Positions 7,909-56,100 of a DNA stretch of 64,000 bases are shown in pieces; position 1 is the first letter of the stretch, and each line of letters starts with the position of its first letter. The notes beneath the pieces were generated by a model. It worked only from the letters and a program-made list of their open reading frames with translations, was not told the origin of the DNA and searched no databases. A program made the position numbers and the translations under genes. This DNA is from Toxonevra muliebris (lineage: Eukaryota; Arthropoda; Insecta; Diptera; Pallopteridae). Location: the NCBI GenBank assembly GCA_963691655.1, contig OY829329.1, positions 58,231,408-58,295,407 of the forward strand, in the 5' to 3' direction.

Positions 7909-9158
7909 CAGGGTGACAATTGTAAAGTGACGCAAGTTTAATACTCTGCAGCAAGCTTTGCCATTTACCGTTACTTTAATTTAAAAAGCAAATTCATTCA
8001 TCATTGGCTTTGCTTTTAATTTCATTTGAATTTTTGTTATTACATTTTAAAATTTCCATAAAAATGGACAAGGAAAATATTCGTCGTGAAATTATGAAAT
8101 TTCATTTGGCAAATTATAGTAGCCGTCAAATTGCAAAGGCTTTAAATTTGTCAAGTCGTACGGTAGACCGAGCTATTATTCGATATAATGAAACTGGAGA
8201 TAGAGACCGGGGAAAATTTTCAACAGTTGCCACTACTGGTTTAACAGAAAAAATTCGTAAACGAATCAAGCGAAATCCAAGGCGCTCAATGAGAAAAATC
8301 GATAAGGATGTGGGAGTAAACCGTGAAACAGTGCGAATCATTGCAAAATCAAAGCTTAATCTTAAGCCGTACAAGCTCCGAAAAGCTCAAGATCTGACAC
8401 AAAAAAAGAAAGATTTGCGACTGCAAAGATGCAAGCGTACTCCGTGTTAAAAAATGTTGAAAATATCTTGTTTACAGATGAAAAAATTTTCACGGTTGAA
8501 CAACATTTCAATGCGCAAAATGACCAATGTGGCTAACATCATCATCGCAACAAAATAGGACTGTTGGCCGAGTTCAAAAGCCAGCTTCCGTTATGGTATG
8601 GGCTGGAGTTTCCGCTAATGTCAGAACCCCTCTAATATTCGTTGAAGAGGGTGTTAAAATTGACCAGGTTGTTTATCGGAGCATTTTAAATGAACATGTT
8701 CTTCCCTGGGCCCAAGATACATTTGGAAATGAAAACTGGACTTTCCAGCACCTTCCCACATGGCAAAATTAACGCAAACATGGATAAAAGACAATTTTTC
8801 TGGATTCATAACATCTCAATAATGGCTCCCCAGACTTGAATCCAATGGACTACTCTATTTGGAGTATTTTAGAGAGTAAGGCTTGTGCATCTCAACACCA
8901 CAGTCTGGAGTCGCTGACAAATTCATTAGAGAAAGCCTGGACTGGAATTGATCAGGAAGTCCTGCGGCGAACAGTCCTACGATTTCCGGATCGATTGAAG
9001 GCATGTGTGCAGGCTAAAGTAGGTTATATGGAATGAGGTGGGGTTCAAATGAATGCTTATATATTCAGCAATGTTAACACTTAATTGTACTTAATGGAAG
9101 TACGTCCTTTTGAAAATAACTGCTGAAATGTGTGCGTCACTTTACGATTGTCACCCTG
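7909..9158 (+). mobile_element. Tc1/mariner-superfamily element (TA target site)
   Basis: 1250 bp with inverted ends CAGGGTGACAATTGTAAAGT / ACTTTACGATTGTCACCCTG flanked by TA (7907-7908, 9159-9160). It encodes a broken transposase (8064-9036) in the same orientation as its 5' end. It sits between the arms of the 7230-9910 element and is therefore younger than that element. Confidence 0.85.
8064..9036 (+). pseudogene. Broken Tc1/mariner transposase
   Basis: The start ATG at 8064 gives MDKENIRREIMKFHLANYSS, a helix-turn-helix N-terminus (SRQIAKALNLSSRTVDRAI). Later pieces in shifted frames carry FTDEKIFTVE (first catalytic Asp), KPASVMVWAGV and PDLNPMDYSIW (third acidic site). Frame is lost near 8440-8530 and again after WTFQ near 8750, where the expected QDSAPAH segment with the second catalytic Asp is missing. 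A dead copy. Confidence 0.85.
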
Positions 9159-23800: not shown

Positions 23801-26800
23801 TGACAGTAAAGTCTGATCGGTAAATGAACAGAAAAATATCCAAAGTCAAAAGCAAACCCAGGGAACTCAAAACAGGGTATTCCGGTAAACCCCACCCTTT
23901 GAATTTTTACATCAATTAAGGCGTGACAAATGTATGATTGAAAAGTTAAAAATCTTCAAGGCTTCTGCGGCGTCATTCAGAACTTTGTAGCTCTTGTATT
24001 AAAGATTATGTTGCATTTAAAAATTAAATGAAATAAGATTGCGATTTGTAGAGTTCTATATACCACTAAGTTTTCCAATTCTATACTACTAAGTATATCT
24101 AGTTATGTTAAACTAAATACTAATTTCTCTTTTTTTTAATTTAATAGGATGGCGCACAAAATCGCATCAAACAGTTAAAGGACATTGAATTAACTAAAGG
24201 CGTTTACACCGGACAATTTCAACTATCCGAACAGCCCGTTCTCGGCAATTGGAATATTGAAGTTAATGTAGGTGGAGAAAATCCTGAAATCAAATCCTTT
24301 GAAGTAGCCAAATATGTTCTGCCGAAATTTGAAGTTTCCATTGAAACACCAAAAGATGTTGCCATTCCTGATGGTAAACTCAAAATGACTATCCGATCGA
24401 AATATACTTATGGTAAATCGGTTAAAGGCAAAGCAACAGTTTCTGTCAAACCATCATATCATTATTATGGCAGTAGTGATATGAATTTAGAAGCTGAAAA
24501 AACTATTGATGTCGATGGAAAGGGTCATGTTGAATTTGATTTTAATAAAGATCTGCGATTGTCAACCGAGCAAACTTATGTACCGCCATTGAAAATTTTC
24601 GTTATTATGGAAGAAGAATTGACGGGAAATAAACAAAATGCTACCGCTCAGGTACAATTGCATGCAGAACGTTTTCGTATTGAGGGCATTGATACACCAT
24701 ACACTTACCATCCTGGAAAACCGGTGCAATTTAAAGTGGTTGTAAAGAATTTAGATGGTTCTCCAGTACAAGATACTAAAAATAAAATTAAATTAATTGT
24801 GGATCCACCAAGAAATTACTTTTATCGTGGTGTTCCGCTATCAGCAACAGGAGTACCAGTGGAAAAACCAGAAGAAAACACTTTAGAATTTGAATCGAAT
24901 TTAGATGAGCATGGCATGGCAACATTTGATTTTAGCCTCCCAGAAAGTAATAATAGTTTTTATTCGATAAAATGTAAATTCTTAGATACAACTGCATATT
25001 TATCATCATTATCGAAGTTTGTACCAACCATTGATACACCAGAATTATTAAAATTGTCGGTAAATACTAAAAAGTGAGTATGTTTTATTAAAAAAATTTT
25101 AAAAAGCCACCTTTAGGCAAGCCTTTTTAGTTTAAATATAAAATAAATATATATTTTTTCTTGCAATATATTTTCGCTTACAATTTAACAATTTCAACAA
25201 ATATGAAAGTTTATAAAAATTTCCCTAAATGGATAATTTTCTTAATTTTGTGTCCTCTTATGCACTGAATATTTTTGATAATTCTCGCACATTAGTGTGT
25301 ATGTTTTTGCACTATGCATTATATATTTTCACATATTTTTGGATTTTTATTCACACACCTAATATGGAAATTCCTCTATTTTGTGTATTTTACACTATTT
25401 CACATCCAATGTGTAATTTTCTTTATTACACATCGTATAAGAAAATATCTTCATTAACTATAGTAAATATTTTTATATAAAAATATTTTATAATTTGATT
25501 GTTTTTCGCATTTTTTCACAGACCTCAACTCGGCAAGGATGTTTCTGTCGACGTTAAATCTAGTGAGGCGATACCATATTTTGTCTATACAATTGTTGCA
25601 CGTGGTAATATCTTGAAAATGGAACATGTTGATGTGCCCGAAGGGCGTAAAGAGCATACTATCAAATTTACGCCAACTTTTGAAATGATACCGAAGGCTT
25701 CAATATTTATACATTACATTTTCGATAATAATTTACGTTTCGAAGAGCAAACAATCAATTTCGAAAAAGATTTTGAAAACTCGGTAAGTTTTAATATACC
25801 CATTTAAACTATTAAAAATTTATTATTATTGAAATTGTATTTCTAGATTGATATCACCACACAACCTCAAGCCAAACCAGGTGAGGATGTGAAACTTAAA
25901 ATAAACACCGACCCCGATTCATTTGTTGGTCTCTTGGGTGTTGATCAAAGTGTGCTGCTTTTAAAATCTGGCAATGACTTTGATAAGGAGAAAATTTTCA
26001 GTGGTTTAAATAATTTTGATACGAACACACCATGGACACGCGGTTATGGTCGTTATCCAGGACAAACTTCAGGCTTGATAACAATGACAAACGCAAATTA
26101 TCCATACAATGACGGTAAGTTAATCTTGTATAAATATTTAACGTACATATATATATTTCTTGAATATTTCAGTACCATACTAACTAACAGCGAATTGTTA
26201 GTAGGTATTATAAAAAAACAAAAATTACACAGAAAAGATCTCTGCCTTTCTTTCAATAATGTTTCCAATTTGACTTTCCCTCCCCTTCATGAATTATGCA
26301 CTTATGTTGAATATGGTATGTCTGTGGTCAATTCTAAGAGTTGCATCCTATACCACTTGCCCTGGCAGATGGTGTTTTAAATGATGAGCTCATTGAAGTT
26401 GCATTAAATGATGAACCCATACATTATGATATAACTGATAGAACAATTGATAATTCGATGTATACAACACCAAGAGTACGCATAGATTTTGTTGAATCTT
26501 GGATTTGGCATATCGTCGATAGGTTTGTGCCCATCCTCTATTTGAATTTGTTTGCTTCTTGCTTTTATTCAAAAATAAAACAACAAAAAATGCTTGTTTT
26601 TTTTTTCTTAAAGCATGAGAAAGCTGTAATATATTTCTTATCTAACTTATGCTGTTCAATGAATAAACACCAAGAATCGTTTTTTTTACCTTACTACCTT
26701 ACCCTACTAAACTAATAATTAAAATAATATTTATGAACACTGCAGCAAGGTGATGGACAAAATTTTAATAATTTTTGTGCTATACTTATACAAAAATGTA

Positions 26801-29800
26801 AGCAAGGAAAGTGAAATTTAGTTAAAGTTATTGATTAAAATTTGCGAAATTTCTGAAAATTGACGGAAACCCTTAAAAAACTTTTTTCGGCATTATTTCT
26901 CAATCTCCAGTCTCTTTATTTCTCTCCAATTCCTGATTTGAGCTGATTCTTTAGTTTTTCTATATGGTTTTTGAGTTATGAACAAAATATAGAAATTAGT
27001 GTACGCATCATTTTCAAATTTCATCCCTAACAATTTCCAGAGTTTTAATTATGCAAGTCCTGAAAATGAACTTGAAAAATACCTCAACAAACAGAAACAT
27101 CATTCTGATTTAAATTTACCTTAATTTCTTCTGTTTCCTCCTTAACAGCTCAGCAGAACTGATCTCATAATTTTATCTTCAAGTTTTTGGAGTTAATAGA
27201 TTTTAGAAAAATAATATATCTATATAGAAAAGCAATATTTTTCCCGATCTAAAAACTAATTTTCAACATAGATCCGTGGTTTCTGAATTTTAAACTTTTA
27301 TGTTTGAAACTAGTATAATTCACTAAACATTTAGCCATAAAAAAATAATAGGAAAATTAAGTTCAGCTGCTGGAGTGATGGTATGCTCTATTCCTTCCTT
27401 CGAAGACGACCTGGTAACCATCTGCTTGCAGCTCTACTCGTCGCAGTGTGTAATCACAGGGTCGCCTGATGCTTTGCAAATATGTATACTCCTGCCTTTA
27501 TAGAAAGTTCCTCTTGGATCTCAAAAATATCCTGAGCGTTCATAAGGTTTCACCGTGACAGAAACAACTGAAATTCTAACCGAAGATCCAATTCATCTGA
27601 CCACACTCCACAGTTGTTAGCCGAGGATTCATTTACTTGAATTCCGTATTTTATTATGTCAAGACCCATCTTATAAAATCCAGACCCTGACGCCCACAAT
27701 CGATATAGAAATTTACCTACCCACTATGTTATCTTCAGCTCCTAGAATTGCCATAGTGTCACGCCCGAGAAAGGCCTTTTCGTATTTTCGACGAATCTAG
27801 GGACATTTTCAGCCACATCCTCCACGTCGTAATCACAACAAGCAAACCTTTCCTCGGATATATTGTAGCCTCTATTTCACAGGACCAAGAGGTTTACCTG
27901 TTGATCTGGTGTATAGTCAACACAAGTATGTTAATTCTTTTAGAACACAGTCAAAATTTAACCCTGCCAACTTATGAGTCTCTTGTCCGACAGTGCGTGC
28001 GGCTAGAATGTTGCCTTAAGCTATAACTTTAGCTAGTTGATTGCATGGACAGTCTGAAAACGTACCGATTTGAGTCGGTGCAGTTTGCTTCTAGCACATA
28101 TGAGTATAAATAATTTTTTTATATATCTTCAATCGATTTATCATTCTCTGACGTTACAATATCATCCTTCTCGCTTCGCTCGTTCAACCTGATGCTTCTA
28201 CCTCTCGTCAAAACTGAATTAAAATTGCTTAAACTTTCGAAATTTTGCGCAACAGCATTCAAAACACACAGTTTTCTCTATTATTCAAATCAAACTTATT
28301 TCAGCATACGATGATATTTTGAAAACAGTTGAAGATGACGATGGATTAGTCTTAGAGTCTGCAATCGATGATGCGTCGTCTTCGATCGACGAAACTGATT
28401 CTATTGATCGTTTCGATAGTGACACATCATCTTCTTCAATGGATTCAAATGGAGAAAAAATAAAAACATTTAGAATACGTAAAGATTTTGCTGAAACATG
28501 GATTTGGTACCAACAGCAAGAATTCTTGCCTAATTCGAATAGGTTAGTTTCCAAAATGTAAAATACAATCAGGTCTGCAATAATTAATTTGAGTTATAGC
28601 TTTTCGTATTTATAATTTTGTGCACTAAGCACAGTTTTAGTTCTTTTTTATTCTTTCTTTTTCACTAAACTATATAATTTAAGTAGCTTTGAAAAAATGA
28701 ATTAAACATTGATAACTAAATTCTTACTAAATATGTATATCTATTTATGTATATACAATAATTCACTAACAAACAAAAAATATTTTCGATATAGATGCAG
28801 GGTAAAAAAAACAAAAAAATTTTTTTAAACTAATTCAAAAAAAAATTTTTTTAAACTAAAAAAAAAAAATTTTTTTTGAATTACTAAAAAAAATTTTTTT
28901 TTAGAACTAAAAAAAAAACTGTTTTTTGAACTAAAAAAAAAAATTTGAACTAAAAAATTTTTTTTTTAACTAAAAAAAAAAATGTTTTTTTCAACTAAAA
29001 AATTTCTTTTTTGAACTAAAAAATTTTTTTTTTTTCAGGAGTTACGCATTTTTATTGTAATAGATCTTAGAATTTATATCCTGAAAGTTTTTTAGAATAG
29101 AATGAGTTTAGATTGCAATACCCTGGTGCTAAAAGTGTACATGCGAGGCCCTGGACTAATTATTTTAAAAATAAATACATGAATCCCTAAATCGTGAGTC
29201 TTCGATGTAACTCTGAAAAGCTCTCAACATAACTATGTTAGCTTTTGATGTACCATAGATTAAATATTTTTATATTCTCAGTTTTTCTCTCAACCCTTAA
29301 GGGTTTCTTTAGTTATTTTCATATTTTTTTTTCTTTTGTTTGCTTGCATGTAAATAAAATCGACCTACTATATTTTTTTTTTCTTTTTTTGTAATATTGA
29401 AAATTAATAGAGTTTATTCTAATACTTATGAATATGTACATATGTATTTTTCTACATATTTTATAGTCCATAGACTTCCAATATTTAGAGCACGTAGTGG
29501 CGGTGATTTTAATTTCGCTTTCAATCGAGCCATATTACAAAGTTCTATTCCGAGAACCTTTTCGGATGCTTCGTCCTCATCTACTTCATCTACTACTGCG
29601 AATAATAAAATGCCACAAATTCGTAAAGATTTTTCCGAAACATGGATTTTTAATAATTTGAACAGCACTGCTGAAGAAAAGTTAGTGTTAAAAATAATAA
29701 TTATAAATATGTATAATAATTTCCCAAATCCTTTTCATAAGTCCAATACATTTTTAGTACCTACTTACGTATATAACAATAACAATTTTCATCAAAACTC

Positions 29801-32800
29801 AAAATGATCCATGAATGTGCCTTTCCCAAATTCATTTTAAAATTGGCCAATCATACTTAAATATTTTAATGCATTGTTGTTTTTAGCACAAAAAATTGTT
29901 AAACTATTTGCCAAATTTATGTAAAATCAAAATTTCGACACAAAAATGACAAGTCTACAGAAATCCACGAAGGATAATTCAATCCAATAATTGCAATCCC
30001 AAATCAGGAGAAATTGAAATAATTCAAATTTCTTGAAACATTTTAATCAAAGAAGTGAGTAACCCAATTTCAATGATTCGATAGAAAATATTACTGTGTT
30101 TCAATCAAACACTATATATTTAGCTAAGAAGCAGAGATCGTTTCAATTATGGAAGTGAAGAAAAAACTTGTCGAAATGTGGGAAATGCTTGCCAAAAATG
30201 GGGAAATACTTGTCAAAATTAAGGAAAGGTTTGTCAAAGTTTTCAATTTCCTTTATTTTTTCTTAATTTTAAATATTTTCTAAACTTCCAGCAAGGACCT
30301 TTAAAATCTATGAATTTAGGTTCGTTTAGTAATAAAGTCTGAACTTGTATGAGAATGATTGTGATGGAAGAATTCAATGATAATCATGATTAAAAATAAT
30401 AAAATATTCGAATAAAAGTGAAAAATTTATGAAAACAAGTTTAAGAAGCATTTCCTATTTTCTACAAGCATTTCACCACTTTTTGACAAACATTTTCCCT
30501 TTTTTGACAAACTTTTATTATTTTTGACAAGTGTTTTTCCAAACAACTTAAGCATAATCAATTTTTCTGTTCAAAATATGTTGAAAAATAAAAATATATT
30601 TTTCTTAAAAAAAACTTTAATAAAAATTAAAAATTATAGTTCAAATATAATACAAAAACGTTTAAGATAAAAGTCATTAATTTAAAAATTTTATCATATT
30701 AGTAAAATTTGAGTCGTAAACAGCAAATTGGCAGTTTTTAAAATTATGCAGAGGGAGTGTCGTCAGGGTTGGAGCATATTTTGACTTTTGCTCATAACTT
30801 CCGTTGAATGCCAAATTAATTAATGTTGCATATCGTTGGCAAGATTTCACAAATTGCAATGTTTTTGCTGAACATTAAAATATAATTGTATTAATAGTTC
30901 AGGAGTTATGGACATTTACAAAAAACAAAAATTGTAGTCAGGATTGAGACACTGCTGTCAGGGTCGAATCACAGTAGAAAATCAATAAAAAATGAAGGAA
31001 ACTGATTGAAAATAACTTGAAAATAAAAAAAAAAAAAAAAATTTAAAATTACACTTGAAAACCGGAAAAAATACCTGAAATCAAAATAAAAATCTGAATT
31101 TTAAGGAAAATTTGATTTTTTTTATACACACACGATACGATACGATAAAGACACGAAAAACACGCACGAGTGAAAAAGATTCCGGAGTCAAAACGCATCA
31201 TTACAACAACATTTTCAGGTGTTCCGACCTTGATTACAAGCACTGCTCCGACCCTGACAACACACGTCATTTAGCGCCGCATAATTTGCAGCATATTCGC
31301 GTGATGCAAACTCCATGAAATGCTACATATTTCCACTTCTTAAACCTTATCGAACAATTTAAGTTAAATTACTTCGATGTTTTCATGTAATTTTTTTAAT
31401 TTATCCATTTTTTTTGGAACTGTTAATAAGTTTTTTTATTCTTCTTTTAACACGCAGTCACGTAACACTTATATACACTTCACGCTCTTAACTCGAAATG
31501 ACATGAAAAGTTTGCTTTCGTCATGACAAACCATACTGTATATTAACTTGACGCACGCCAGTGAGATATAACGGAGAAAAGTCACTGTCCTGACCCTGAC
31601 AGCGCTCCGACCATAACAACGCTCCCCTACCTTCTTATGGGCTCATTTGATTGAAAAAAAAACAAAAAACAACCGTTATTTCTCAATGAAAAATTTAGAA
31701 TTATTTTTTATTCTTCCGAAAGCCCAGAACTATACTTTGTAGCTGGTGACTGCACATAAATCAATTGTTCTTTTGATCTATCAATACTCAACTAGGTATA
31801 ATCAAACTTTGTAAAAATTCGTTAAAAATTTCTTTCCTAATTCTGATAATATTTCTCATCTCTAGCATTTTAAAGTTCACAAATCATAGTAAAAAAATAT
31901 GTATAGCTCACTTGCTCTTAGTAGTATTAGTAGAATATAATTTTTTAACAAACTTTATTCCTTATTTAGCTCCACTACAGTATTTTTCACCATGTCTTCC
32001 AGTTTTAGAAATTTCAACAGATATGCTACAACGTTTACCAGGTATACCGGGTCCACCGATGCCACAAGCTTCACCAGGTCGAATTCCAGAACCAATTCAG
32101 CCAATAGTACGAAAAGAATTTCCAGAAAATTGGATATTCTACAATGAAAATAAGTAAATTATTATTATTGTTATTGTCGGATAGATTTGTGCTGCAATGG
32201 AGTTAATGGGACATCAACAGTTTTTTTAAAACTGTTTCTGTTAATGCAATCACTCACTCTGCTTGATGTCTAAGTATTTTCATACCCCTTTTCTGCATAC
32301 CATATAACTATTATATACAAATAGCCAAATGTCGATTATGTTTATGAAATATTTTTTTATACGATTACTATTTTAAATTATTTGGAGGGGTTCTTTCTCA
32401 TTATGAAAATATGCATACATAAGTGGGTATAAAAATAAGTATCCTAAACCATTACTGCGTACCTGCAATTTCTATACATTCATACATATATCAAACGTTT
32501 AAATGCATATATAATTTCAACAGAATTTGCATTCTTTTTTATTATTTCCGATAGGCAATGACTATATAATTGTACCATTGATAAACAATTTCGCTGAGAC
32601 CACAGGTTTTCAAATTACATCCGTCGCCTTTGATACTGCATCTATCTATAATCAAAATATATTGCAGTTAGAAAATGCCATCAAAATACGTAAACAATTT
32701 GAAGAAAATTGGATTTTTATAAATATTATAAAGTATGTAGCTAACAAGGCTAAAGGATTCAATTCAGTTCACACCAAAATATGTACAAAAGTTCATAACA

Positions 32801-35800
32801 TATTTTTAGTAAAATGAATTAAATCCCACTATTATGTACTTGTTTAAAATTCTTGTCTTGTTGCTGATATTTTGTCCCAGTTATATGAATTAATTTAAAT
32901 AAATTATATCACACACCACATATGTGCATTCAAAAATTTCAATTCCATTGTATACTTTTAGATGGATTAGTATACTATTTAGAAAGCGACATAGTCCGTG
33001 AAGAGGAGGTTGCCAATGTATTATTAACAGATGCCGCTAACAATGATCAAAATGTAAAAATACGTAAAAATTTTAATGAAAATTGGATATACTCTGATCA
33101 TCAAAAGTAAACTTCTTACTTAATTTTTATTTACAAAATTTTAAAACTTTATTATTTTTTTGTTCATATTTCTGCTTTTTACATTTTGGTATTTTCACTT
33201 CTCATATATATATATATTTTTTTTTTCAACAAACCTGTAAATATATTATTTTACTTTTTTTTCTACATTCAAATTCTCTGCATTTCATTTTGTAGATAAT
33301 GAAGACATTATTGACATACGATTAGTAGTTGATGATGATGAGGATATAATAGTATGGAGTCAAGCTGTTGAAGCTACCACTGTTTTATCTGAAATCGAGG
33401 CAATTTCCAATACAATTGTGCCAGTAAAAATACGCAAAGAGTTTTTAGAAACTTTTGTATTTGATAATAATATCAAGTAATTATATTTAAATATTTGTTT
33501 TGCTTTATATAATTGCATACATATTATAGTAGCTGACTTTATCAAATGACTTGTCTTCTAACTTAAGTTGATAGACAAAATTGATAATATTAATACATAC
33601 ATATTTTTCAGTTGGCATTGTTTACTAACAAGTTGAAAATAGAAATGCTTCGGATTTTGCCATTTTATTGTGTCAGCGGATAAACCTGATAGATTATTTC
33701 CAAGTCGTCTGACTAAATCAGCTGGTGTAAAGGCACTATTTTATGTATTAGTCTTTTATTTCTTAAAATATTTATATATTCATTGAAATATCTTGAACCC
33801 AGGAATTTAAGTATATTTGAGAAAAAATTTTGAAAATTCGCGAAAAATAAGTAGTAAGAAAAATGAGTTTTCAAAGCATTTGATTTGAATTAAAGTGCCT
33901 AATATATAAATCCATTCATCATAAGTATTTATACTTGGAGAAAATCTCAAGAAATTTTCGTCATAAAGACGAAGACATTTTTAAAATTTTATTGCGCATG
34001 GTGACCTTGAATTATATAGCAAATTTACTTACTACTCAAAAATATTTGTTGTATAATTTCACATCTATATTTTGCATCATTCCACCGTTTTAAACATGAC
34101 GATAGAAATTTCAAATCAGATATCCCATTTTTCAAAAGTCAAAACTTTCAAAATTTAGCCCCGAAATCCGAAATAATAAAATCAAATTAAAAAAAATGTC
34201 TAGTTCTAAATTTTGGGAGTAAACCTTTCTCTGCACTATTAACGGATTAAAAGGACAATTATTTTTAGGAGAAATATAAGTCCCTGAAAATGGTCCAAAA
34301 ATCGCATATCTTAACCATGTTTAAAGTATAAATTAGATGTAAACATTTGAAACACCAAAACAGAATAGAGTAATATTTTAGCTCTATAACGATTCTCATT
34401 TGAAATCTTGTTATTTTCGGAAAAAAACGTTGATTTTTGTCATACAATTTAATCATTCCAAATTTCTACGAGTTTCATTATGAATTTTGTTCAACCTGCT
34501 TCTAGTTCTGAGGAAAAATAATCGAGCCAACAACCGACGCATAATCAATTTTATAATCAAAAGATTGTCGGCGTTTGATGTTTACTGTTGCTGCAGAAGG
34601 AATGCCAATAAATCGTGGGGTCGTTTATCACGGTCCTTCTTTTTATCCCTTATATTTCTCAGGGGTTACTTCATTTAGCCTAATATCATCAAAACTAAAA
34701 ATATATATTTGTGAACATTTTTTGAAAAGTTGGATTTTTCAAAACATTGAGCAATTAAAGTTTTTTCTAACTACTCAACATTGAGTAATTGTTTCATTTT
34801 TTGTTGTTGTTATTATCTATGTACGTTCAAGTTACATAGTATGTACCAAGGCCGTATTTAGAGGAGAGGTTTTGGGGCTTCTGACCCCCTCCCCCACCGA
34901 AATGTAAAAACTTTATTTTAATTTTTGATATTAATTGCCAGTGAATTGGGGAAAAAAGTCAAAATAAAATCTATTAAACGATTTTTAAATATGTTTTACT
35001 TTAATCGGTTTCTTTCTAAAAAGTCAAATATAAAAAATATTGGAAAAATAAATTTGAATTGAAATCGTAGCACATTATGGCCAAAAATGGTATTTTTAGG
35101 AGTTTAAAACTAATTTTTTCTAAAACGTGCCGTGATGGGAAGTTTTTGACCTTAGCTTCATGTTCAGCATGAAAAATTCATTCGCTAACACTAGGAACCA
35201 TTTTATTCGCCAAACGCATGCAGGCAGTGTTATTGGATCAGCTCCAAAGTTTTAAGGCACAATCTTAAAATGTAATTTATTTTTTAACCCCTTATTGCTC
35301 AGAGCACCCCAACTCGGATGATCTCTTTCAATGCTGTGACTGCACGAATTTAGGGAATATATGCCAACCTCATCCGGGCGCATTGGCAAGACAATGAGTT
35401 GTTATCGAAATGATGTCTTTTATGATAAAAAATGTAATAGAAACCACATTGAATAATATATATTCTTCTGTTCAGTTGTCGAATAAATCTTTCGCCTTTT
35501 ACTGTGATTATTCTGTGAATTTTTGTTGTCATTTTCGGCAATTTTTTTAGATTAAGAATAAGAAAACTCTGAAGCGAAAATTTTTCCTAAAGCTTTAAAA
35601 TATTTATCCACTGTCTCTAGTCTGATAGGGCTACATCAAATGCATCATCGTATTAAATTTATTGTATTTAAACATCAGTTTCATAAAAATTTGATATGAA
35701 TATTTTTTTCGAATGAAAACACCGCCCCCCCCCCGCCGTCCCCCCCAAAAATATTCTTTTGTTACCATTGAAAATAACGAAATTTTTGCATACATTTAGA

Positions 35801-41800: not shown

Positions 41801-44800
41801 CTCGAAAACCCATGTCTCGTCACCAGTTATGATGCGTTCGATGAACGTTGGATCGGAATTTACGCGTTCAAGCATGTCTTCAGCCACCTTACTGCGATTC
41901 ACTTTTTGAAGAAAAACTCTTTGTTCGATATTTTTATCCATAGTAAAAATCGCAACGCACACAAAAGGTTGACTTGTTCTTAATGACGCCGTAACCAAAC
42001 TAAATGACACATAGCAATAAAAATTCACAGAATAGTGGTTGACAGTTGTGCCAACCTGGGAAAATTTAAAATGAGAATTTCCGGGTACTTATTTGACAGA
42101 ATGTATCAAACATTTAAATGTATATATAATTTCAACAAAATTTGCATTATTTTTTATTATTTCCGATAGGCAATGACTATATAATTGTACCATTGATAAG
42201 CAATTTCGCTGAGACCACAGGTTTTCAAATTACATCCGTCGCCTTTGATACTGCATCTATCCATAATTAAAACATATTACAGTTAGAAAATGCCATCAAA
42301 ATACGTAAACAATTTGAAGAAAATTGGATTTTTATAAATATTATAAAGTATGTAGCCTACAAGGCTAAAGGATTCAATTCAGTTCACACCAAAATATGTA
42401 CAAAAGTTCATAACATATTTTTAGTAAAATGAATTCAATCCCACTATTATGTACTTGTTTGAAATTTTTGTCTTGTTGCTGTTATTTTGTCTCAGTTATA
42501 TGAATTATTTATATTTTATCACACACCACAAATGTGCATTCAAAAATTTGAATTCCATTGTATACTTTTAGATGGATTAGTATAGTATTTTGGAAGCGAC
42601 ATAGTCCGTGAAGAGGAGGTTGCCAATGTATTATTAACAGATGCCGCTAACAATGATCAAAATGTAAAAATACGTAAAAATTTTAATGAAAATTGGATAT
42701 ACTCTGATCATCAAAAGTAAACTTCTTACTTAATTTTTATTTCCAAAATTTTAAGACTTTATTATTTTTTTGTTCATATTTCGGCTTTTTACATTTTGGA
42801 ATTTTCACTTCTTATATATACTTTTTTTTTCTTTCAACAAACATGTATATTAGACCGTACCGCCTTACAGGTAAAAAAAAAGTGCGCCGCATACCTTCGA
42901 ATCTAATTTATTTTTGCAAAGCGATTTTGATAATTTTTTTTTTTTTTTTTTACCGAACGTAGGGGTCGCCTTTTTGAATTTCTCGTTATATCTTTGACAT
43001 TTACAGTCGGATCTTAAAGTATGATATATCGATGTTTTTGTCTCAGGGAGACCTATTCTTTGCTTTAGAAGTCATTGACCTCAAGTACCCCGTTTTAGTA
43101 TTTACCCATCAGATCTCATTTCTTACTACCCTAATGTCAGAAAATTAAGGCTCCCAAATAATCATTAAACTTTTGCTAAGAAAGTTTTTCGATATTTTCA
43201 GCAGAAGTATTTTAAATAAATTTTTTTATTTATTTTTTACCGAATGTTGGGGTCGCCTTTTTAAAATTTTCATTATATCTTCGGAATTTATAGTTGGATC
43301 TTAAAGTAAGATATATCGATGTTTTTGTCTCAAGAAGACCAATTTTTTTGCTTCAAAAGTCATTGACCTCAAGTACCCTCTTCTAGTACTTGCCCGTCAT
43401 ATCTCAGCTTCTACAACATTAATTAAAAAAATAAAAGTAAAATCAAATAATTGAAATTTGAATCGATCATATTTCGACGTGATTCAAGTTTTGGCTGTAT
43501 TTCTGGTGGCTCTCAATCCCTATTGTCATACCAATCAACCGATCAAAAATCTATTAGATACGGATGGTCAATTCAATAAATTTTTTTTTGATCTTGTGAC
43601 TACTATTATTTTGGCCGTAACTGCTCATCTATGTATAAACTAAAACTGTGCGTCAATTTATATATACATTGTAGAAAACGAAATTATTCCAGAATATGCT
43701 GTAAAGAATAAAGTGGAAGATTTTGATTCAATATCAAATAATTTCCTTCAACCGTGAAAAGTAAACTAATTTCTCTGGTTTTTGTCATTTGTCATTTTCA
43801 TCTGAATAAACAAATATCTATGCACTTACATATAATTTTCTACATACTTATAAATAATTTTCTACATTTTCTACCTACTACAAATTCTACTTTACATTCT
43901 TGTAGATGATTACCTTCGCATTTTGGATTCTGAGAATAGAATCCAAAATCACAACCAGGTGGGAAGGTGGTCCTGTTTTTTATTCCACCTATAAAAATCT
44001 AAATTAACCACAAATCGAAAAGAACAAATTGAAAATATTGCATCGCAGAAATTTTAAAGAAAATTTAATTTATATTGATGTTAATTGATGTAATTAAATC
44101 TAAAAAAATATTTATTTTTGATGCATGCTTGTTTTATAAAAATAGATTTGTTGTTAAGAGTTAAGATGTCTTTACACTAGCTGACTAGTTTCTTGACCGG
44201 AATCAACAAATAAGTTTGATAATGTTCGGTGATCACATTTTTTGATAGCAGCAGGTTTGTAGATTAAGTCAGCTATTGTAAAAGTATTCTTGGCAGTATC
44301 TTTCTGTTGCCATATTGTGTTTTTGTGTTAGTACACTTAAATAGTTCCCTAATTTACTCAACTTTCTTTAATCATTGTCTGTTCCTAGTGAGAGATTTTT
44401 TAAGTATAGATGCTAGTAATTATATTAAAAGAAGTTAAGAAAATGTGGTGCTTATAGAGTGAATAAGGAGAGTAATGAAGGGGAGTTTATAAGAGAAGTT
44501 GAAAGGATGTAGACAAGTGGAATGGTAAAGGGGAGCTGCGATGGGAATAGCCGAAAAGGAATGAAGGTGGGGAGTGAAAATAGGGAGTGGTAAAATGAAG
44601 TGGGGAAGAAGAGTGAAGAAGGGGGCTGCAGAAAAAAAGTGAAAAGGGGTGTGGAAACAGGGGTAAAAAAGGAAAGTAGAGACTGAAAATGAGGATAAGA
44701 GTGGAGTGATTGGAAAGAATAAGGAAAGGAAGCTGATAAAGAGAAAAGAGAGGGTAGTAGTAAAGGTAAGTAGGGAAGAAAGGGTGGTAAAGGAGAGTAA

Positions 44801-47800
44801 TGAAGAATAGCGGGAAAGGAAAGTGGAGAGTGAGGAGAAAGAGTGGAGAAGTGAAGTGGGGAAATAAGTGGGAAAGAAAGGTGAGTCAGAGAAGTGGAAA
44901 CGGGAAAGAGAGTAAAGAAGAAAAGTGAGAAATTGAAGCGAAAGAGGAGATTTTTTCAAGAGAAGTGAAGAAAGGAAATGAAAAAAGATAAAGTGGATGA
45001 AAGTAATAAACAACTTAAAAAAAAAATTAAAATTAAAAGTACCTACAAGACTGCAACTGCTGTAGGTCAATATTTAAATAACAGATAATAATTTTGAACA
45101 AATATACATACATATATCGAAACAAAATCTGCTTAACAAATAAATAAATGAAATTAAATAATATTTTATTGTTAATTAAAAGCAGATGTTCAACGTTTAT
45201 TAACCTTATTTAATTGTGATAAGGTTAACATATTTAAGTAAGTATAAGGAAACCTAAAAAATGCAACAAAACTCACAACAAAAACCATTTTGTAAGCATA
45301 AAGCTTACCACAATAGAACTCTTAATTGTTGGATCTTCTTTTTTCGATTTTTGGTATGGAAACCTTGGCAGCCTCTGCCCATTAATTTAGGTACAGCTTA
45401 TTGAATCATTAAGTAAATCTATTAATATTTTTTTCCTTTTTTGTCAAATCAAATATTTTTTGGCTCCCATTGAAATATGTATGTGGCAATATTTTCTTGC
45501 ATTGTTTCTTTTCTATCTAAATCAGTGATGTCGAAAATTTCAAATTTTCGCACTTTTTTTTCCAAATCATAAATAATTTATACAAAAATTTATACATTTC
45601 CCGCTATTTTTACCCATCAAGATGCTGAACTGATATATTTTACACCAGCACCCTTTCCCGAGGAAGAGCTTATTATACGTGATCTAGATCAAATCGCAGC
45701 AACAAATATAATAAACGAACAGTATTTCCTTGATATTGAATATTTCGCCGAACATTTAATACCGAATTTTGTGAAACCGAAACCAAAACCTTATGCAGAT
45801 TACGTAAATGCATGGATGTGTTTGGATACTGAGATGTAATTGAATAATATGTAGTAGCAACTGAATTCTTCTCTAAAAGCTTATACCGAATCTTTTGCTT
45901 ACATTTTTCCGGAAAAAGATAAAGTAATCAAAGCAAACAAAAAAATAAATAAATAAAAAGAACAAAAGCTTATCTTCCGCGGCCACACATTCTTTACATT
46001 CATAATTTTTTTCTTTTTTCTTTTTTTTCTGTCTACACCCTGTGGGCGTGAGAAGCTTTAACTAAATTTCAGCTTTTTGTAAGCTTAAAACTTTACATAG
46101 AATTCATCATCAGTCAGCCTTGCATGCTTTTATTTCTTTTTCCTTTTCGTGTTTATGATTTTATTTATTTTTTTTTTCTTATTCACTCTTTGTATATTCA
46201 AAAGTTTTAAACCATAAGTGCTCTTAAAAGTTCAATTGCTTCTTTTTTTTAAGAAAATATAAAATTTAGTAAATTTTGTATCTCTTCCTTCAGATAGAAT
46301 GAGAAACGTTGTAAAAGCTTTACAGTGGCATTTAAAACCAAAATAATTTATTATAAAATTATTTAAAGTTTAATTCAATTTTTCTTAATAAAACTTATAG
46401 TTCTAAGTCGTTCTATTATACAACGTTGGCAATACTGGAACATACCTTATCCAGATCTTATGCCTCATTTACGAGATTTTCCTGTTGGTCAAATGCACTC
46501 ATTGTACGACGAATACAATCCATCTATTGTATCGTATTATTCATCACGTCCAGTTTCACATCGAGATCAAAGCTCTGCCCCTCATCCACCAATCTTTCCA
46601 GCAAACATACCAAAAATACGCAAACTATTTTTGGAAACTTGGATTTTTAAAAATATTGAGTAATGAATCTTGTCTAACTATTTATGTTTAATCTATGGCT
46701 TATAGATTATTTATTTGTCAATTGTATTGCTTACTGTTTTTGTCCGTGCACTTATTTACCTGCATACATATATAGATTTATTCATTATAGTACATATACA
46801 TACGTACATGAGTAGCACATTGTTTGTGTTGCCGTCGATTGGCTTGATGATGTTAGTAAGTTAGGGACATATTTTGAATAGAGGCCCAAGTTTTTTCGTC
46901 TTATGTCGTCTTCAGGCACCTATTTCCGATACCTTTTTCTGAAGAAAATTCAGTAATCACAAAACAGACCGTACCACGACGTATTTCATGCCCAAAACAT
47001 CCACTAAAGTAGTTCGAACCGAATTGTGAGACATTTCCAGGCCCCGTGCCATCTCTCTGAAGTTTCAATGATGATTTTCTATAACCATTTCCTTCAGTCT
47101 CTCGTTATTTTCGTCAGTTGAAAACAGTGAAGGTCAGCCGAAGCAATCAAAGTTTGTCAACCACTTCTCATCCTCCTTTGAATGCTTTGTACCACTCGTA
47201 TGCTCGTATTTCAATAAAGCTAACACGCCGAATGCCTACGACAACATGTTCAACAATTTAATACAAATTTTATTTGCCAATACAATATTTTAAAATTCAC
47301 AACAGTTGTATACAAACCGATGGACAGATGGTGTCAAAACTTTTTGTGACAGCTTATAACTACTTGTTTCTTTTTTTCATAAACAAGTAACGAAAAAAAA
47401 TAAATCAAACGCGGCTACTTTGGCCGTTAATTTAAAATTATAAGTATATATTTTTTAAAACGAAAATTCTACATTTCTACTATGTATTAAGGCTGAGAAG
47501 CTTAGCCAGTATGTCAACAAAACCAATAATTCGCAAACAATTTTTGGAAACTTGGATTTTTTACAATATTAAGTAATAATCATTTTTACAACATAGTTAC
47601 ATACCTACATACATCGGGTGATCGATTTATTTTGTGGACAGTTAAATATTTTGAAAATTCTGAGTGTTCTGGAAAAAATGCTACTGATAAAAATGATTTG
47701 ATGATTTCAAATGCTATCTCATTCTCCTTTAGACAATAAAGTCGAGCCTAAAGCAGTTTTTTTAAACCACAGAATTTTCGAGTTGTTTTCCTATCTCGAG

Positions 47801-50800
47801 TTAAATGAACCACCCAATTCATATGATCTATAGTTTTTGTTAGACAGTGACAGTCTTGTTTTTTGTTTCTTTCACGTAAATATATTCGTTATATATTTTG
47901 GGGCTTTATTTGGCCTAAAAATGCATTAAGTTCAGAAATTAATTCCATCCTCAAAATTTGCCACTGAATTCAAATTCTATTCGTATTAGAAGTAGGCGTG
48001 GTATTGGCACGATTTAAATAAACTCATAAACTAGCGAGTTCAAAAGAGGGGACTCTATTTTTCATTCACCAACAACTGCTAAACTCTTTGAAATGAAAAT
48101 ATGGGGAGTGGGCGGAGAGGTTCTCTTGTTTTCGCTAGTGGTCTGGGAGATCTTGAAGTTGTAGATGTTCGGAAATTAATATCTTAACAGTTTCTATCGT
48201 TGTTATTGAGTTAAAAAATGTTTTGAAGAAAAAAATGTAACCAAAAACCCCTCCCTTGAATCCGCTAGTGCTCTCATATATTTATACACACTGTCCAGGA
48301 TTATGGATATAATTGAAATTCAAAAAACTGGAGATTTTGTCAGTTTTAAGCTTCAGAATTTTATGCATCAAAATTTTTTAATTTTAATCTTAATACTAAC
48401 TATTAATCTATAAAACATTATAATAACTCTATATACTTTTGCTCAGACATATTTGATCTAATAAGACCTATCTCTGCTGTGGGCGGCTTCGGCGGCGGCG
48501 GCGGCATCGTGGCGTTTGCTAGTGTCGGTTCATTCAGTGCCAGCGGTAATGAAATTCAGCTGCAACATCACGGTGCTAGTCCAGCATCAGCAGAACCCAT
48601 ACAATTACGTAAAGAATTTCCCGAAAATTGGATTTTTCAGAATATTGAAAAGTAAAATGAATTTTTTTTTTCTTAATTTTGTTTAAAAATATTTTTTTTG
48701 TGTACTTTATCACGGTGTATTGGTAAATCTAGGTACTAGAGCCACTACTTCTTCTTTTTCTTTATAATAACTGCAAAACTAACAAAATTTAAACTTTTTT
48801 CTTTTTTATTCTTATTTCAAACCTAAAGTTTCAATAAAACTTAAACCCGTTGCTTCGCATTCAGATGGTGTGCCTATAAAAGGTGCCTCAGGTCAAAAGA
48901 TTTCATCTTCTTCTACCTCGGATAACGATGTAACGCCACAATATCCTTACACTGCCACAGACCCTGCCACCGCATTAAATGAAATTTCTAGCAATATATT
49001 CTATTTACGTCAGAATTTTGTGGAAAATTGGATTTTTATACAACATTAGTATGAAGAAAATTCTTTGTTTTGTGTTTCTTGATTGCATTTGAAACAAAAA
49101 TTTATAGTTACTAAAATAAATGTTATTAAGTGTTTATAAATTATGCTAAAGTGCTTTGAATTTAAAACGCATCGATTTAATTTAATTTTTGTTGGAACCA
49201 TTTTTTTAATAATTTTGTTTTTTCATTTCAAGCAAATGCGATTAATTCGAAATGAACTGTTCGCTTGGAATCGCTGATTTTATGCTAGTAAAATGAGATC
49301 TTGCCATAAATGTAACCTAAACCTTTTAATAACTGTACTATGTCTTAACATTCGTCACTTCTTTTTCCTACTTTTGAGTCACTTATTTTTGTATGAGTGT
49401 GAGTAGCATGCGTATCTAAATTTCCTGCATTTTAATTGCATCTTTTCGTTATCTCGAGAGTTTTAAAATCGCTCTTTATTCTTCTTTATTTCGTGAACGC
49501 GGGTAACTTTTCCCTCTGATTACACTGTTCAACACACAAAAAAATAACAAGGTTCTGAAAGTGGATTCTGATAGAACTCGGGAAAAAAAATTATACGTGT
49601 CTCGGCGTTTTAAAAGTTTACGTCTAATTTTCTTTTTACGCTGGCCTAAAGTTTTCCCATTTCTAACAGATTAAGTATAACAAATCATAGGACAACTTGT
49701 TAGTATTGCGTCAAAGCTTATTGGTATGTTCAGCAACTTATAATAGAATTTTCTGTAGCATATTTTCTTTTAACATATTAACCCTTTAGCGCCCACCTTT
49801 ATGGGTCTTTTTTGCCCTTTTAAAAAAAAATACATTTTTGACCCATTACGAGGGTTGATGGAAGGTTAATATGTTCAAAAAATATGTTGCCCATGAAATT
49901 CTATATAGGTCACTGAACAACAAAAAACTGTAAACATGATTTTTGGAAAAATAAACCCAAATTCAAAAATTGTTTCAAATTTTCACCTTTTATAAGCAAT
50001 GAGCTGGTGTGTCTTCTAAAGTATTTTCTAAACTAAAAATATATTTATATAGCAAAACAAACATTAATTAATTAAATTCATTCAACAACAAATACCTTTT
50101 TTCTTATACCTGTGAGAAAAGCAACCACTTTCAAGTCACAACAAATGCGCCATTTATTATTCGTATTTAATTCTTTTCTTTCATGCCATTTCCATATGCT
50201 ATCGGAATCAATAGCAATTTTTTTTTTCTCAAGTTCTATCAGAATCGACTTTCAGAACCTTGTTATTTTTGAAAAAATTGATTTTTTGAAGTTATATATA
50301 AACAGGTTAATGAGCAAATAACTTCAAATAACGAAATTGACATTAACTTAAGTCATGACTTTGAAAATTAACCTCTAGATATATAATTAACCTCTAGATT
50401 TAATTTTCAAAGTCTCCTAAAAAACTATCATGAACTGATCGAATGGGGACCGTTCAGAAAAAATGACACCTAGAATCATTTTCTCACAAACATATACACA
50501 CACACTCTCATGTGCTAGACTTTCAAATAACGAACTGTTATGCAGACTAGCTACAATGGGAAAAAACAACAACATAAGTGTATAGAACGGTAGTGGTAGT
50601 TTCTTTCAATATCTCTATTCAGTGAAGATATTTGGAATCAAATCTGTAGCTTATATGGGATATTGAAGGATTAAGAACTATCACTAAGATCACAGATGAG
50701 GAATTGTGGCGGATTCCGAAACGGCCGTCTGATTTGCCCGTTTCTATATACATTGTTGTTGTGATGACTACATTTGTTCATTAACCTGTTTATATATAAC

Positions 50801-53164
50801 TTCAAGTAACGAAATTGACATGAACTTAAGTCATGACTTTGAAAATTAACCTCTAGATTTAATTTTCATAGTCTCCTAAAAAACTAAATTGATTTTTGTC
50901 GGACAGTGTTATCAGTTGAGTCACTTAGCATAGCATTTTGATAGAATTTCAGAGTGAGTGGATAAAATAGTTTCAGGTTAATGCATTAGTTTCTTCTTTT
51001 CATCATCGTGATCACTTTTTCCGGCAATTACTAATAATGAGTCACTTATTTTAATACGAGTTTCAGTATGAATAACTAGTGAAAATAGTTTCAAGTTAAG
51101 ACATTGTAAACTTCCTTAACCACCATAAATCACTTTTTTGCGGAAATTTTCAATAATGAGTCACTTTTTTTTTTGAAAGATTTTCGGTGTGGTTTGTAAA
51201 ACTATATTTAAGTTAAAGCATTAGCTTTTTTCTTTCAAAATCATAAAACACATTTTTTCGGCAATTTTTTTAATTTTCGGTGTAAGTATTCAAAATAGTT
51301 TAAAGTTGAAGCGTTAACTTCTTCTTTTGACCATCGTGAATTACTTTATTCGATTAATATTTGCGGCTTTTCACAATCGCAAGTTACTTCTTTTGATACA
51401 GTATCATATTGAGCGTTCTTAAATCGTCAAATTATGATACTGGGTTTACACGTTCGTTGTTTTAATTGTCGTTTGATGAACCTTTAAATGCAAACGCAGA
51501 ATAATGAGCATAGAAAAATAAAGCGTTTACATACAGATTATTGGTTATTCGTTTTATGCATCAGGTCTGTTCTAATTTCTAGCAATCATGGTCCATTTGT
51601 TGTTGAAATATTGCCACTTTTTTCATTTGCATCATCGTTGAACTATGATACCTGCTATTAAGGGGGCACTCCCAGTTGTGGACCGAAAAAATAGGCATTT
51701 TCAAGAACTTGTTTTCCATGTAAACCACTGGTTTTTATAAAAAATATTTATTGTCTGAAAGTAAATATATTTACTATACTTAAATTTTTATTAAAAAATA
51801 TTTACAACTTCGTAAGTAATGAACGATCCCGCCGATGCCTCTCTGGAAAATATGTTTTGCTATAACCAACATTTTGCGAATCGATTTTCACTAAAAAAAA
51901 CGATTGCTTTTCAGTTGTATAAAAAATAGTTTTGCATAAAAAAAATCCTTCGATTAACCACTAGATTATTATGTATTGAAAAAGCATATTAAATTTAAAA
52001 ATAATCGGTTCAGTAGTTGTTGAGTAATCCTGGGCACCGGCTTCAAAAATGTCATTTTGAGAAAAACGCGTTTAAGGTTTCAAATCACTGTAATGTCTAG
52101 AAGAACATTTTTTGTTTGGCAATCAAACAGATTCATAAATTTTCACCATTTCAACTTAAAAATTTGTAGACACATTTTTGAAATTATAATTTTAAAGTGA
52201 TTTCTGACTTGTGCTTTTGAAAACAAGATTTTGAATCTTGTAGCACAGGGGTTTTAATAAATAAATAAGTAAATGGAAAAAATAGAGTTTTTGAAAGTTA
52301 CAACTGGAGGTGCCCCCTTAATTTTAAACCACTAGTTCCTTTGAGTTCTCTTATTTTATGGTTTTAAACCGCTGCTCTCATTAATTGTCAACCACTTCTT
52401 TTGGATACATTTTTTTATACTTATGTGGCCAAAAATAGAATCATGCATTGGCCGACACTTTTTTATTTTTACTTTTTTCAATTTACGAAATTCGTTCTTT
52501 TTAGTGTGTTCAATGTGTTGCTTTTTTTCAGTACCTAGATAAAATATCATTGAATCGAGGTTTTTGACTTGAAAATGAGCTTATCTAAAGAAACTTTGCG
52601 TATAATTTAAAAAAAATATTAATATTATTAAATGAACAAAGTTATCAACTCGATTTTTCTGTGTTCTCTTTCTATTATAATCTTCATAATATTTCAGATT
52701 ATCCTGTCGTATATTTCAATCGTAGGCCAGTTCCAGTTTCACTCGAATATGATGGTTATATTTCTACTACTATAGCTTCTACCTCTATAGTTTATACTAC
52801 TATAGCTCCACAAACTAATAATAATAACGTTATGAATTCAAGTCCAACAATAATACGCAAAAACTTTTTAGAAAATTGGATTTTCGAAAATATTTCCAAG
52901 TAAATAACATTTATAATCGCCTACAAAACAATTAGATATTTCGTTTAACCCTAAACCTAACAATTAAAAATACACATTGCTCCGATGAGGAAAATCACTA
53001 CATATATTTCAAATTTCAGTTTCCTTGTTCTTTACTATGCTATCAGTACAAAGAATACTAAACTTTATAGAAAATTATACTGCAGTTCGCAAAATGTATG
53101 ACCACATAACTTTTTTTTTCTTTAAACTATCAGACTCTCTTGTGAGCTTTAGGGTTAAATTTTA

Positions 53165-53196
<32 letters not shown>

Positions 53197-56100
53197 ATAC
53201 ACACTCTCTCTCTCTCTTTCTTTCGCCATCTCTTATACTTTAATTACTTTTCATTAATTTTATTAATCAAATTGCTGCACGTAAATAATTAATTTTGAAC
53301 ACGTTCTCTAAGAGTAAACCTTGTATCTTATGTGAAAATTTTTAAAATTTCTCCTATAATTTTTAGTAAAAAATTTGTATATAAATATTTAATATTGTTT
53401 TCTATGCTTTTCTTTTGTTTGTTGCCTAAATCTTTATTCTCATAATTCTAGTGACAAATTATGTAGTAAAAATTAAAAGGAAAGGAGCCAAACCACTTTC
53501 CGGCGTTTTTGATGCACCAAAAGAATATGCTGCCGATTCATTGGCAGAAGCATCACAGTCTAAATTTACTGTAGTTAGTAGCGTGAGAAAAGATTTTCGT
53601 GATGTCTGGATTTGGTACAATCAAGAAGATATGAAGTAAATTTTTTTAAACATCGTTTGTTTTTCTCTTGAATAGTTTTAATTAAACCTATGACTTTTCT
53701 GTATATATTATTGTACAGTTTACTTTTATATACTTTCTTATTGCATTACGTTACAACAAATTTAATTATTTTTTTTACCAGCAATTTTTTTTTTTTGCTT
53801 TCTTTTTTTTTTTTTTGATTTTTGTAAAATTTCTCAATTAAATTGCAATGCCTAGGAATTGAACAAAATATTAAAATTTATAGTTTATATGAAAAAAAAC
53901 TTTATTATTTATATACTAATCCCCGTTTGATTGCGTCCATAAAAATGCACAATTTTTTAGTTCAGTTAACCGGGGAATGGAATTAACAGAGAAATTTAAA
54001 TACATTTTGAACTATAAAATATAACATTTCCGACTCAATTAAGCAAGAAACGCAATTAATTGATGTTCAATTAACCGGGGACTACTGTAATTGCAATTAA
54101 TCAATATATTCAATATCCATGAAAAGATTTCAATCTTTCAGTCAAATCGCAGTAATTTTTATAAAATAGATTGCAATTATTTTATTTCAAGATTGCAATT
54201 CAATTATTTTTCTGAAATATTTCCATTTTTAGATAAATCAGAAAGATATGTATTTAAACAATCAACCCTATGAAAGTAAGTGAGTGTAACCTATCAATCA
54301 AATCAAAAGATTTCAATTCCTTTATTTTATTCATTTATATAATAAACATTGCAGATTTTTTAATAAATCCCAAAGATTGCAACATTACAATCAAAAAACA
54401 AATCAGTTTAATAGGAAAGATTCTAATTCCCCAAATGTAATCAATTTATACAAAAAAATATTGCAATTTTTTAATCAAATCACATATTGGGAGTATGAAT
54501 GTATAAACTCGTATTTTTTTCGTAAATTGGACATTTATTGTGAAAAAGTGATTATAAATTTATTCTTTAAAGTATTGTCCATCGTTAGCCACAACCTTCT
54601 CCCATCTTTCTGGTAGCATACGGTAGCATTCCGCGTCGAAAGAACTCCTCATCTTTTGAGGCTATCCACGAATCGACCCATTTTTTGAGTTCTTCGAAGG
54701 AACGGAAGTGCTGTTCAGCCAGGCCATGTGTCATCGATCGGAACAAATGGTAATCAGAAGGAGCAATGTCTGGAGAATTCGGCGGGTGGGGTAGCACTTC
54801 CCATTTCAGCGTTTCCAAGTATGTTTTTACTTGCCTTGCAACATGCGGCCGAGCATTGTCGTGCTGAAGAATAACTTCGTCGTGTCTATTCTCATATTCT
54901 GGCCTCTTATCCTTTAATGCTCGACTCAAACGCATCAATTGTAGTCAGTAGCGGTCGCCAGTGATCGTTTCATTCGGTTTCAACAGCTCATAATACACGA
55001 CACCTTTCATATCCCACCAAATACACAGCATAAGCTTGGATCCATGGATGTTCGGCTTTGCCGTTGATGTTGATGCATGTCCGGGCGGTCCCCATGATTT
55101 TTTACGCTTTGGGTTATCGTAACGTATCCACTTTTCATCACCAGTCACAATACGATGCAGAAAACCCTGTCGTTCAATCAGCAGTTCATATGTAAAAAAT
55201 CGTCGTTCGACGTCTCTCGGCTTCAATTCGTACGGCACCCAATTTCCTTGCTTTTGAATCATTCCCAATGCTTTTAATCGTTTAGAAATGGTTGATTGAT
55301 CAACTCCTATAGATTCTGCAAGTTCTTGTTGCGTTTGACATGAATCTTCGAGTAATGCCTTCAATTCTTCATCTTCGAACTTTTTCGGGCCGCCTGAACG
55401 TTCTCTGTCTTCAACATCAAAATCACCACTTTTGAAACGGGCATACCACACCTGACACATTCTAACGTCTATAGCACATTCAGGATAAGCTTCAGTGAGT
55501 AAACGATGTGCTTCAGTTGCGTTTTTCTTTAAATGGAAGAAGCAAATTAAAACTTCCCGCCCTCCCCTAATGTTGTTTTGTTGGCACGAAATTCGACATT
55601 TTCAGCTATAGTAAAACACTTTTATAAAATTATGAAAATTATTTGACAGATCAATCCATATAGTATTTTTGGCGCTCTTCGAGATAGAATAGCTGTCAAT
55701 GTCAAAAAAATGGCGCGTATGATAGATATGAAGTTAGTCACAATTACGAGTTTATACATTCATACTCCCAATAATTATGTAATTAAACTACTACTCCTGT
55801 CAAGAGACTACAATCTTTCTATCTAATCGCTATGATTTCAATAAAAAATGTTGCAATCCCCCAAACTCAAACATTTATATGAAAAATATTGCAATTTTTA
55901 GTCACATCACAAAGAATGGTAATGGTGATTGTGTATTACTTTTACGAAAAAGAGTTCATGCTTTCAATTAAATCACAATTATATACATAAAAAAGATTCT
56001 AATTCCCCTACAAAGCAAATCACAATAATTTTTTTAAAAAATGTATGTAATTCTTTGAATTCAATCATTTATATAAAAATAATGGAATTTTGTGAAATCA

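Follow-up and report, generated by a model that had tools for sequence, protein, structure and literature searches.

A large array of predicted mutually exclusive bait exons in a Tep2-like gene of the fly Toxonevra muliebris

Results

A Tep2-like gene with an array of bait exons

The 64,000-nucleotide (nt) stretch of DNA analysed here, from the fly Toxonevra muliebris (Diptera, Pallopteridae; assembly GCA_963691655.1, contig OY829329.1, positions 58,231,408 to 58,295,407; hereafter "the window"), carries on its forward strand what sequence homology identifies as a Tep2-like TEP gene. We identified eight constant coding exons, with a single 31.2-kb interval (26115-57323) between the fourth and the fifth, and it is within this interval that 25 copies of one bait exon are found (Table 1). 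Judged by their frames and splice sites, 19 of these are intact (e1-e7, e9-e14, e19, e20 and e22-e25), one is doubtful (e21) and five are decayed. The array is real and large, and we give a probability of about 0.85 to the view that its bait exons form a mutually exclusive cassette.

The predicted product containing a single bait is 1401 amino acids long and possesses the expected series of Pfam domains (macroglobulin, bait-region, A2M, thioester and receptor-binding domains, in that order), together with the thioester motif GCGEQ and a cysteine-rich C-terminal tail, and its matches amongst solved structures include CD109 and mosquito TEP1. The domain series, the structural matches and the database relatives described below all bear out a preliminary description of this DNA in which the gene was called a TEP. 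A simple scan of the upstream part of the window for an exon encoding the signal peptide returned no convincing candidate. The array-bearing gene sits within a contig of 81.7 Mb, in a genome of 491 Mb.

To catalogue the copies, a DNA profile of the motif region was built from 17 of them (and is therefore circular for those 17). The profile gave 21 matches at E < 0.01, namely the 17 seeds plus matches at 26471, 33426, 34714 and 40183, all of which lie on the forward strand between 26471 and 53646, within the cassette. Four copies scored weakly (e10, E 0.25; e17, 0.11; e18, 11; e19, 8.9). Block homology to other copies backs e10, e17 and e18, while e19 is backed by its position, open frame and fitting splice sites, so that 18 of the 19 intact copies have clear homology. 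The doubtful e21 (motif at 47529) has a stop 31 codons upstream and is without a phase-1 acceptor at least 40 nt upstream. The preliminary description had counted 20 usable and five decayed copies between the constant exons 25847-26114 and 57324-57502; both flanking exons, the total of 25 and the five decayed copies were correct, and the usable number comes down to 18 or 19. It had also begun the first exon at 26369, which is a stronger AG inside e1 in the same frame. Since a Bactrocera tryoni isoform aligns from 26338, and the baits of Rhagoletis and other tephritids start at the same residue, we place the start of e1 at 26339.

Exon phases allow only single-exon transcripts in frame

All 19 intact exons possess an AG acceptor and a GT donor, have a length of one more than a multiple of three, and run from phase 1 to phase 2. 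Joined singly to the constant exons, each of the 19 yields a full-length frame, whereas the frame is broken in all 171 possible two-exon joins (in genomic order) and in the join that skips every bait. The phases thus leave only single-exon mRNAs in frame.

Splice-site scores used weights taken from general knowledge rather than derived from data. As a simpler measure, we looked for an open frame of at least 130 nt headed by a phase-1 AG with at least 10 pyrimidines in the preceding 18 positions. This combination was present in 19/19 intact exons, against 3/231 decoy donors in the same introns, where decoys were GTAA or GTAT donors only, and e1-e3 (3/19 exons) carry GTT donors; one of the three passing decoys (29710) falls in the frame of e3 itself. 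Alternative donors appear generally weaker, because 5/19 of them have G at donor position +5, compared with 7/7 of the gene's constant donors (Fisher p 0.0012).

Variable baits end in a conserved hinge motif

Each exon supplies 46 to 87 residues, comprising a bait followed by a hinge motif, and is placed between the bait-region and A2M domains. Charge and composition differ strongly between baits. When 15 of the 19 exons were aligned, conservation was confined to the hinge motif, in which R and F are invariant and E and I nearly so. Similar sequences are VRKHFPETWIW in CD109 and YRTNFQESWLW in mosquito TEP1.

Database relatives and paralogues in the same genome

Relatives were taken as the best 120 of 882 protein database matches, 119 of which bear fly names, and their baits were located by anchor alignment. 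Over the constant part, identity to the T. muliebris gene was 78.0% in Rhagoletis, 74.9-77.1% in seven other tephritids, 71.2% in protein P0031, 66.3-69.9% in ten drosophilids and 56.0% in Lucilia; in a quick tree of 21 rows, the window gene fell outside the eight tephritids sampled. The sequences by themselves would probably place the fly among the acalyptrates, close to the fruit flies. The bait-region motif was matched once in 116 of the 120, and one further protein had one motif, which went undetected by the strict pattern. For D. albomicans, 16 database records contained 15 distinct baits. Both there and in tephritids, Tep2-type proteins (many named CD109 antigen isoforms) have one distinct bait per record, a comparison that covers database proteins only. 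Since nearly all the relatives listed carry one bait each, one exon per transcript is likely in T. muliebris.

A thioester-domain search, whose counts are lower bounds, indicated that the genome has at least ten TEP genes, the array gene included. At least nine further TEP genes lie on the same contig, clustered at 29.43-29.93 Mb, 38.51 Mb and 58.20-59.50 Mb. In the nine others, about 0-644 nt separate the aligned pieces flanking the bait, leaving no room for a large array; six have one bait-type motif, and the pattern gave none in the other three. The B. tryoni protein is 66-84% identical to the window exons and mostly 22-61% identical to the paralogues. By this measure the array gene appears to be nearer to multi-bait TEP genes found in other flies than to the TEPs of its own genome.

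Phases were compared in five single-bait paralogues (L009 was left out). In 5/5, one base is left over at the upstream donor and two at the bait donor, and in the 4/4 where the next exon lies inside the scanned stretch, it completes the codon with one base. The fact that these five genes share the phases suggests that the frame lock is probably ancestral, and that the arrangement is older than the expansion. On this model, tandem duplicates would have been mutually exclusive automatically.

Candidate mechanisms of exon choice

A scan for docking/selector RNA pairing took in 16 of the 19 exons (15 flanks) in six geometries. With eight shuffles, three of the six were slightly beyond all nulls. 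With more shuffles, pairing of a 5' dock with upstream flanks stayed unusual (reached by 1/60 nulls), and the other two geometries were reached by 7/40 and 9/25. The best docking candidate, at 26143, is an AU run. While its pairing exceeds that with cassette introns distant from exons (0.036), DNA lying upstream of the gene pairs with it equally well (fraction 0.59); it is not counted as evidence, although some chance of a docking role is left. Incompatibility between U2 and U12 splice sites is a mechanism known for two-exon clusters (PMC6071210; here and below, papers are cited from excerpts), and all 19 exons of the array have an AG acceptor and a GT donor. With a smallest spacing of 160 nt, exclusion on steric grounds through short introns was rejected.

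Origin and turnover of the array

A tandem block (31.9-33.2 kb) has a second copy, 92-95% identical, at 40.5-42.8 kb. The second block contains e14, which is intact, together with e15 and e16, which have stops, and is interrupted by a mariner-like element (41167-42101) with 31-bp inverted ends and a 264-residue stop-to-stop frame on the reverse strand that matches transposase. A second mariner-type transposase frame was observed at 54945-55601, also on the reverse strand, in the intron before 57324. The array probably grew through tandem duplication, with some members since lost to decay. The repeated block might also be expected if unmerged haplotypes had inflated the array through an assembly error. 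This is very improbable, given that 11 of the 19 intact exons lie outside any duplicated block, that the second block has a mariner insert and stops of its own, and that the contig is so long.

Discussion

We propose that each mature mRNA would include one bait exon, with the rest of the protein constant, so that isoforms would differ in their protease-exposed bait and share the hinge motif that follows it. A protease cut in the bait would then trigger the thioester, and each isoform could answer a different range of proteases. We infer that most of the exons are used, one per transcript in T. muliebris, and that their baits differ in protease preference.

Several observations weigh against this proposal. 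The array is known here from genomic sequence alone, and no docking/selector pairing amongst the 16 exons tested survived controls. Several acceptors are weak, and e12 and e19 may be non-functional, the motif match of e19 being in addition insignificant; the same may hold for e7, e10 and e13, whose motifs have F in place of W. A protein database search with the bait region of e1 returned no match at E 1e-3. Amongst the 120 relatives, three have two motifs in series, all of them hypothetical-protein models, and a Lucilia cuprina protein (P0001, a 2153-residue model) appears to join two TEP genes, which makes the blowfly annotation of the locus look merged. Finally, recent pairs show little sign of constraint in the ratio of nonsynonymous to synonymous change (dN/dS), the values being about 0.7 (e4/e14), 0.65 (e10/e13) and 0.33 (part of e9/e12), each from few changes.

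The dN/dS values near 0.7 and the weak acceptors would also be expected if only e1 and a handful of others were used, the rest being young or dying copies, with frames still unbroken, in a birth-and-death array. In line with this, five decayed copies and one truncated copy are found amongst the 25, and the decayed e15 and e16 closely match the intact e5 and e6. We nevertheless regard such limited use as rather unlikely, as exons with mutually dissimilar baits have retained their open frames, the motif and both phases (19/19), and as a single gene has as many as 15 distinct baits in the records of relatives. It is similarly doubtful that the variants change folding, secretion, partner binding or tissue-specific roles instead of protease recognition. 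While the differences in charge and composition between baits would suit such roles, in alignment the segment corresponds to the bait (or protease-sensitive) region of superfamily members, as the preliminary description had recognised in placing the array where proteases cut the protein, and TEP2 forms of reduced size in haemolymph probably arise by cleavage (PMC5584532).

The arrangement itself is known. Drosophila TepII has five mutually exclusive exons (PMC6071210; five exons are also given in PMC5489563), in agreement with the preliminary description. A wider protease repertoire has been proposed for the five Tep2 isoforms (PMC5489563, PMC2685406), Tep2 exon choice in flies changes with treatment (PMC11765297), and TEP4 has four isoforms that differ mainly in the bait (PMC5584532). 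D. melanogaster Tep2 belongs to the same family and has exons annotated as mutually exclusive at the same hypervariable bait position, five of them compared with the 19 intact in T. muliebris. The BgTEP2 gene of the snail Biomphalaria glabrata contains 12 mutually exclusive exons that together span 30 kb and whose C-terminal part is conserved (PMC7016707). This gene is like the T. muliebris gene in its tandem, mutually exclusive exons, in their combination of variable sequence with a conserved C-terminal part and in its extent of about 30 kb; it differs in having fewer exons, and in that its transcripts have been seen, whereas the T. muliebris array is known from genomic sequence. Alternative bait variants that respond to challenge are also cited in PMC7016707 for Chlamys farreri CfTEP (seven isoforms from six exons) and Fenneropenaeus chinensis A2M-2 (six variants). 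Dscam1 likewise picks one of a set of tandem exons per cluster, but it has several clusters that multiply, and docking/selector pairing reported for them (PMC6071210), whereas T. muliebris has one cluster and no such signal that survived controls. Calling the locus a "Dscam-like" diversity generator, as had been done, was thus overstated, since the gene model has a single cluster, and this yields about 19 forms with no multiplication.

Amongst the published examples we found, none equals the T. muliebris array in size: no larger TEP array was recognised in the literature listed by our searches, and the excerpts of PMC5969219 (on tsetse TEPs) and PMC3923563 held no passage on a bait cassette. 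For a little-studied mechanism of invertebrate immune diversity, the published exon counts of 5 (fly) and 12 (snail) are extended to about 19. Exon phase may offer a simple explanation for the repeated appearance of such arrays. In addition, the nine array-free TEP genes provide an internal control in the same genome, and the array opens direct tests of isoform-specific protease cleavage. More tentatively, this could be the largest TEP bait repertoire described, with the phase-asymmetric bait exon acting as a pre-adapted hot spot from which fly lineages have repeatedly grown repertoires. If so, the 1-to-2 phase, which single-bait TEP genes already possess, would let a tandem duplicate serve only as an alternative, protease-trap repertoires would consist of a long-kept e1-type bait and many fast-turning ones, and the system would be an innate counterpart to the diversity of pathogen proteases.

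Table 1. Coding features of the array-bearing TEP gene (window positions)
Feature	Position	Strand	Remarks
Constant exon	22806..23211	+	first identified; phase 2 start
Constant exon	24148..25073	+	
Constant exon	25522..25783	+	
Constant exon	25847..26114	+	precedes cassette; ends phase 1, donor GTAAGT
Bait exon e1	26339..26522	+	orthologous to tephritid bait
Bait exon e2	28305..28542	+	
Bait exon e3	29467..29680	+	
Bait exon e4	31970..32153	+	acceptor picked among several in frame
Bait exon e5	32555..32732	+	
Bait exon e6	32962..33106	+	
Bait exon e7	33296..33476	+	motif W to F
Decayed copy e8	34597..34750	+	GC replaces GT at donor; approximate limits
Bait exon e9	35800..35977	+	
Bait exon e10	36155..36356	+	
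Bait exon e11	37918..38119	+	
Bait exon e12	39731..39866	+	weak acceptor
Bait exon e13	40027..40231	+	paralogue of e10
Bait exon e14	40610..40793	+	paralogue of e4
Decayed copy e15 (of e5)	42170..42347	+	in-frame stop
Decayed copy e16 (of e6)	42572..42716	+	in-frame stop
Decayed copy e17	43690..43760	+	broken; approximate limits
Decayed copy e18	43990..44086	+	broken; approximate limits
Bait exon e19	45622..45835	+	uncertain; divergent motif NAWMC, profile match insignificant
Bait exon e20	46401..46659	+	acceptor 46401 or later in-frame AG
Doubtful copy e21	47506..47572	+	truncated on 5' side
Bait exon e22	48447..48651	+	
Bait exon e23	48865..49048	+	
Bait exon e24	52698..52899	+	
Bait exon e25	53452..53635	+	
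Constant exon	57324..57502	+	follows cassette; phase 2 start
Constant exon	57795..58693	+	thioester motif GCGEQ
Constant exon	59559..60086	+	
Constant exon	60152..60712	+	last coding exon; receptor-binding domain, cysteine-rich tail

Neighbouring features

A neighbouring TEP gene has its 5' exons at 2092-2953 on the reverse strand and its thioester domain just beyond the window (58227978-58229168 of the contig); as it lies on the opposite strand, the two TEP genes are divergent. A short frame on the forward strand, at 7980-8450, encodes transposase-like helix-turn-helix domains.
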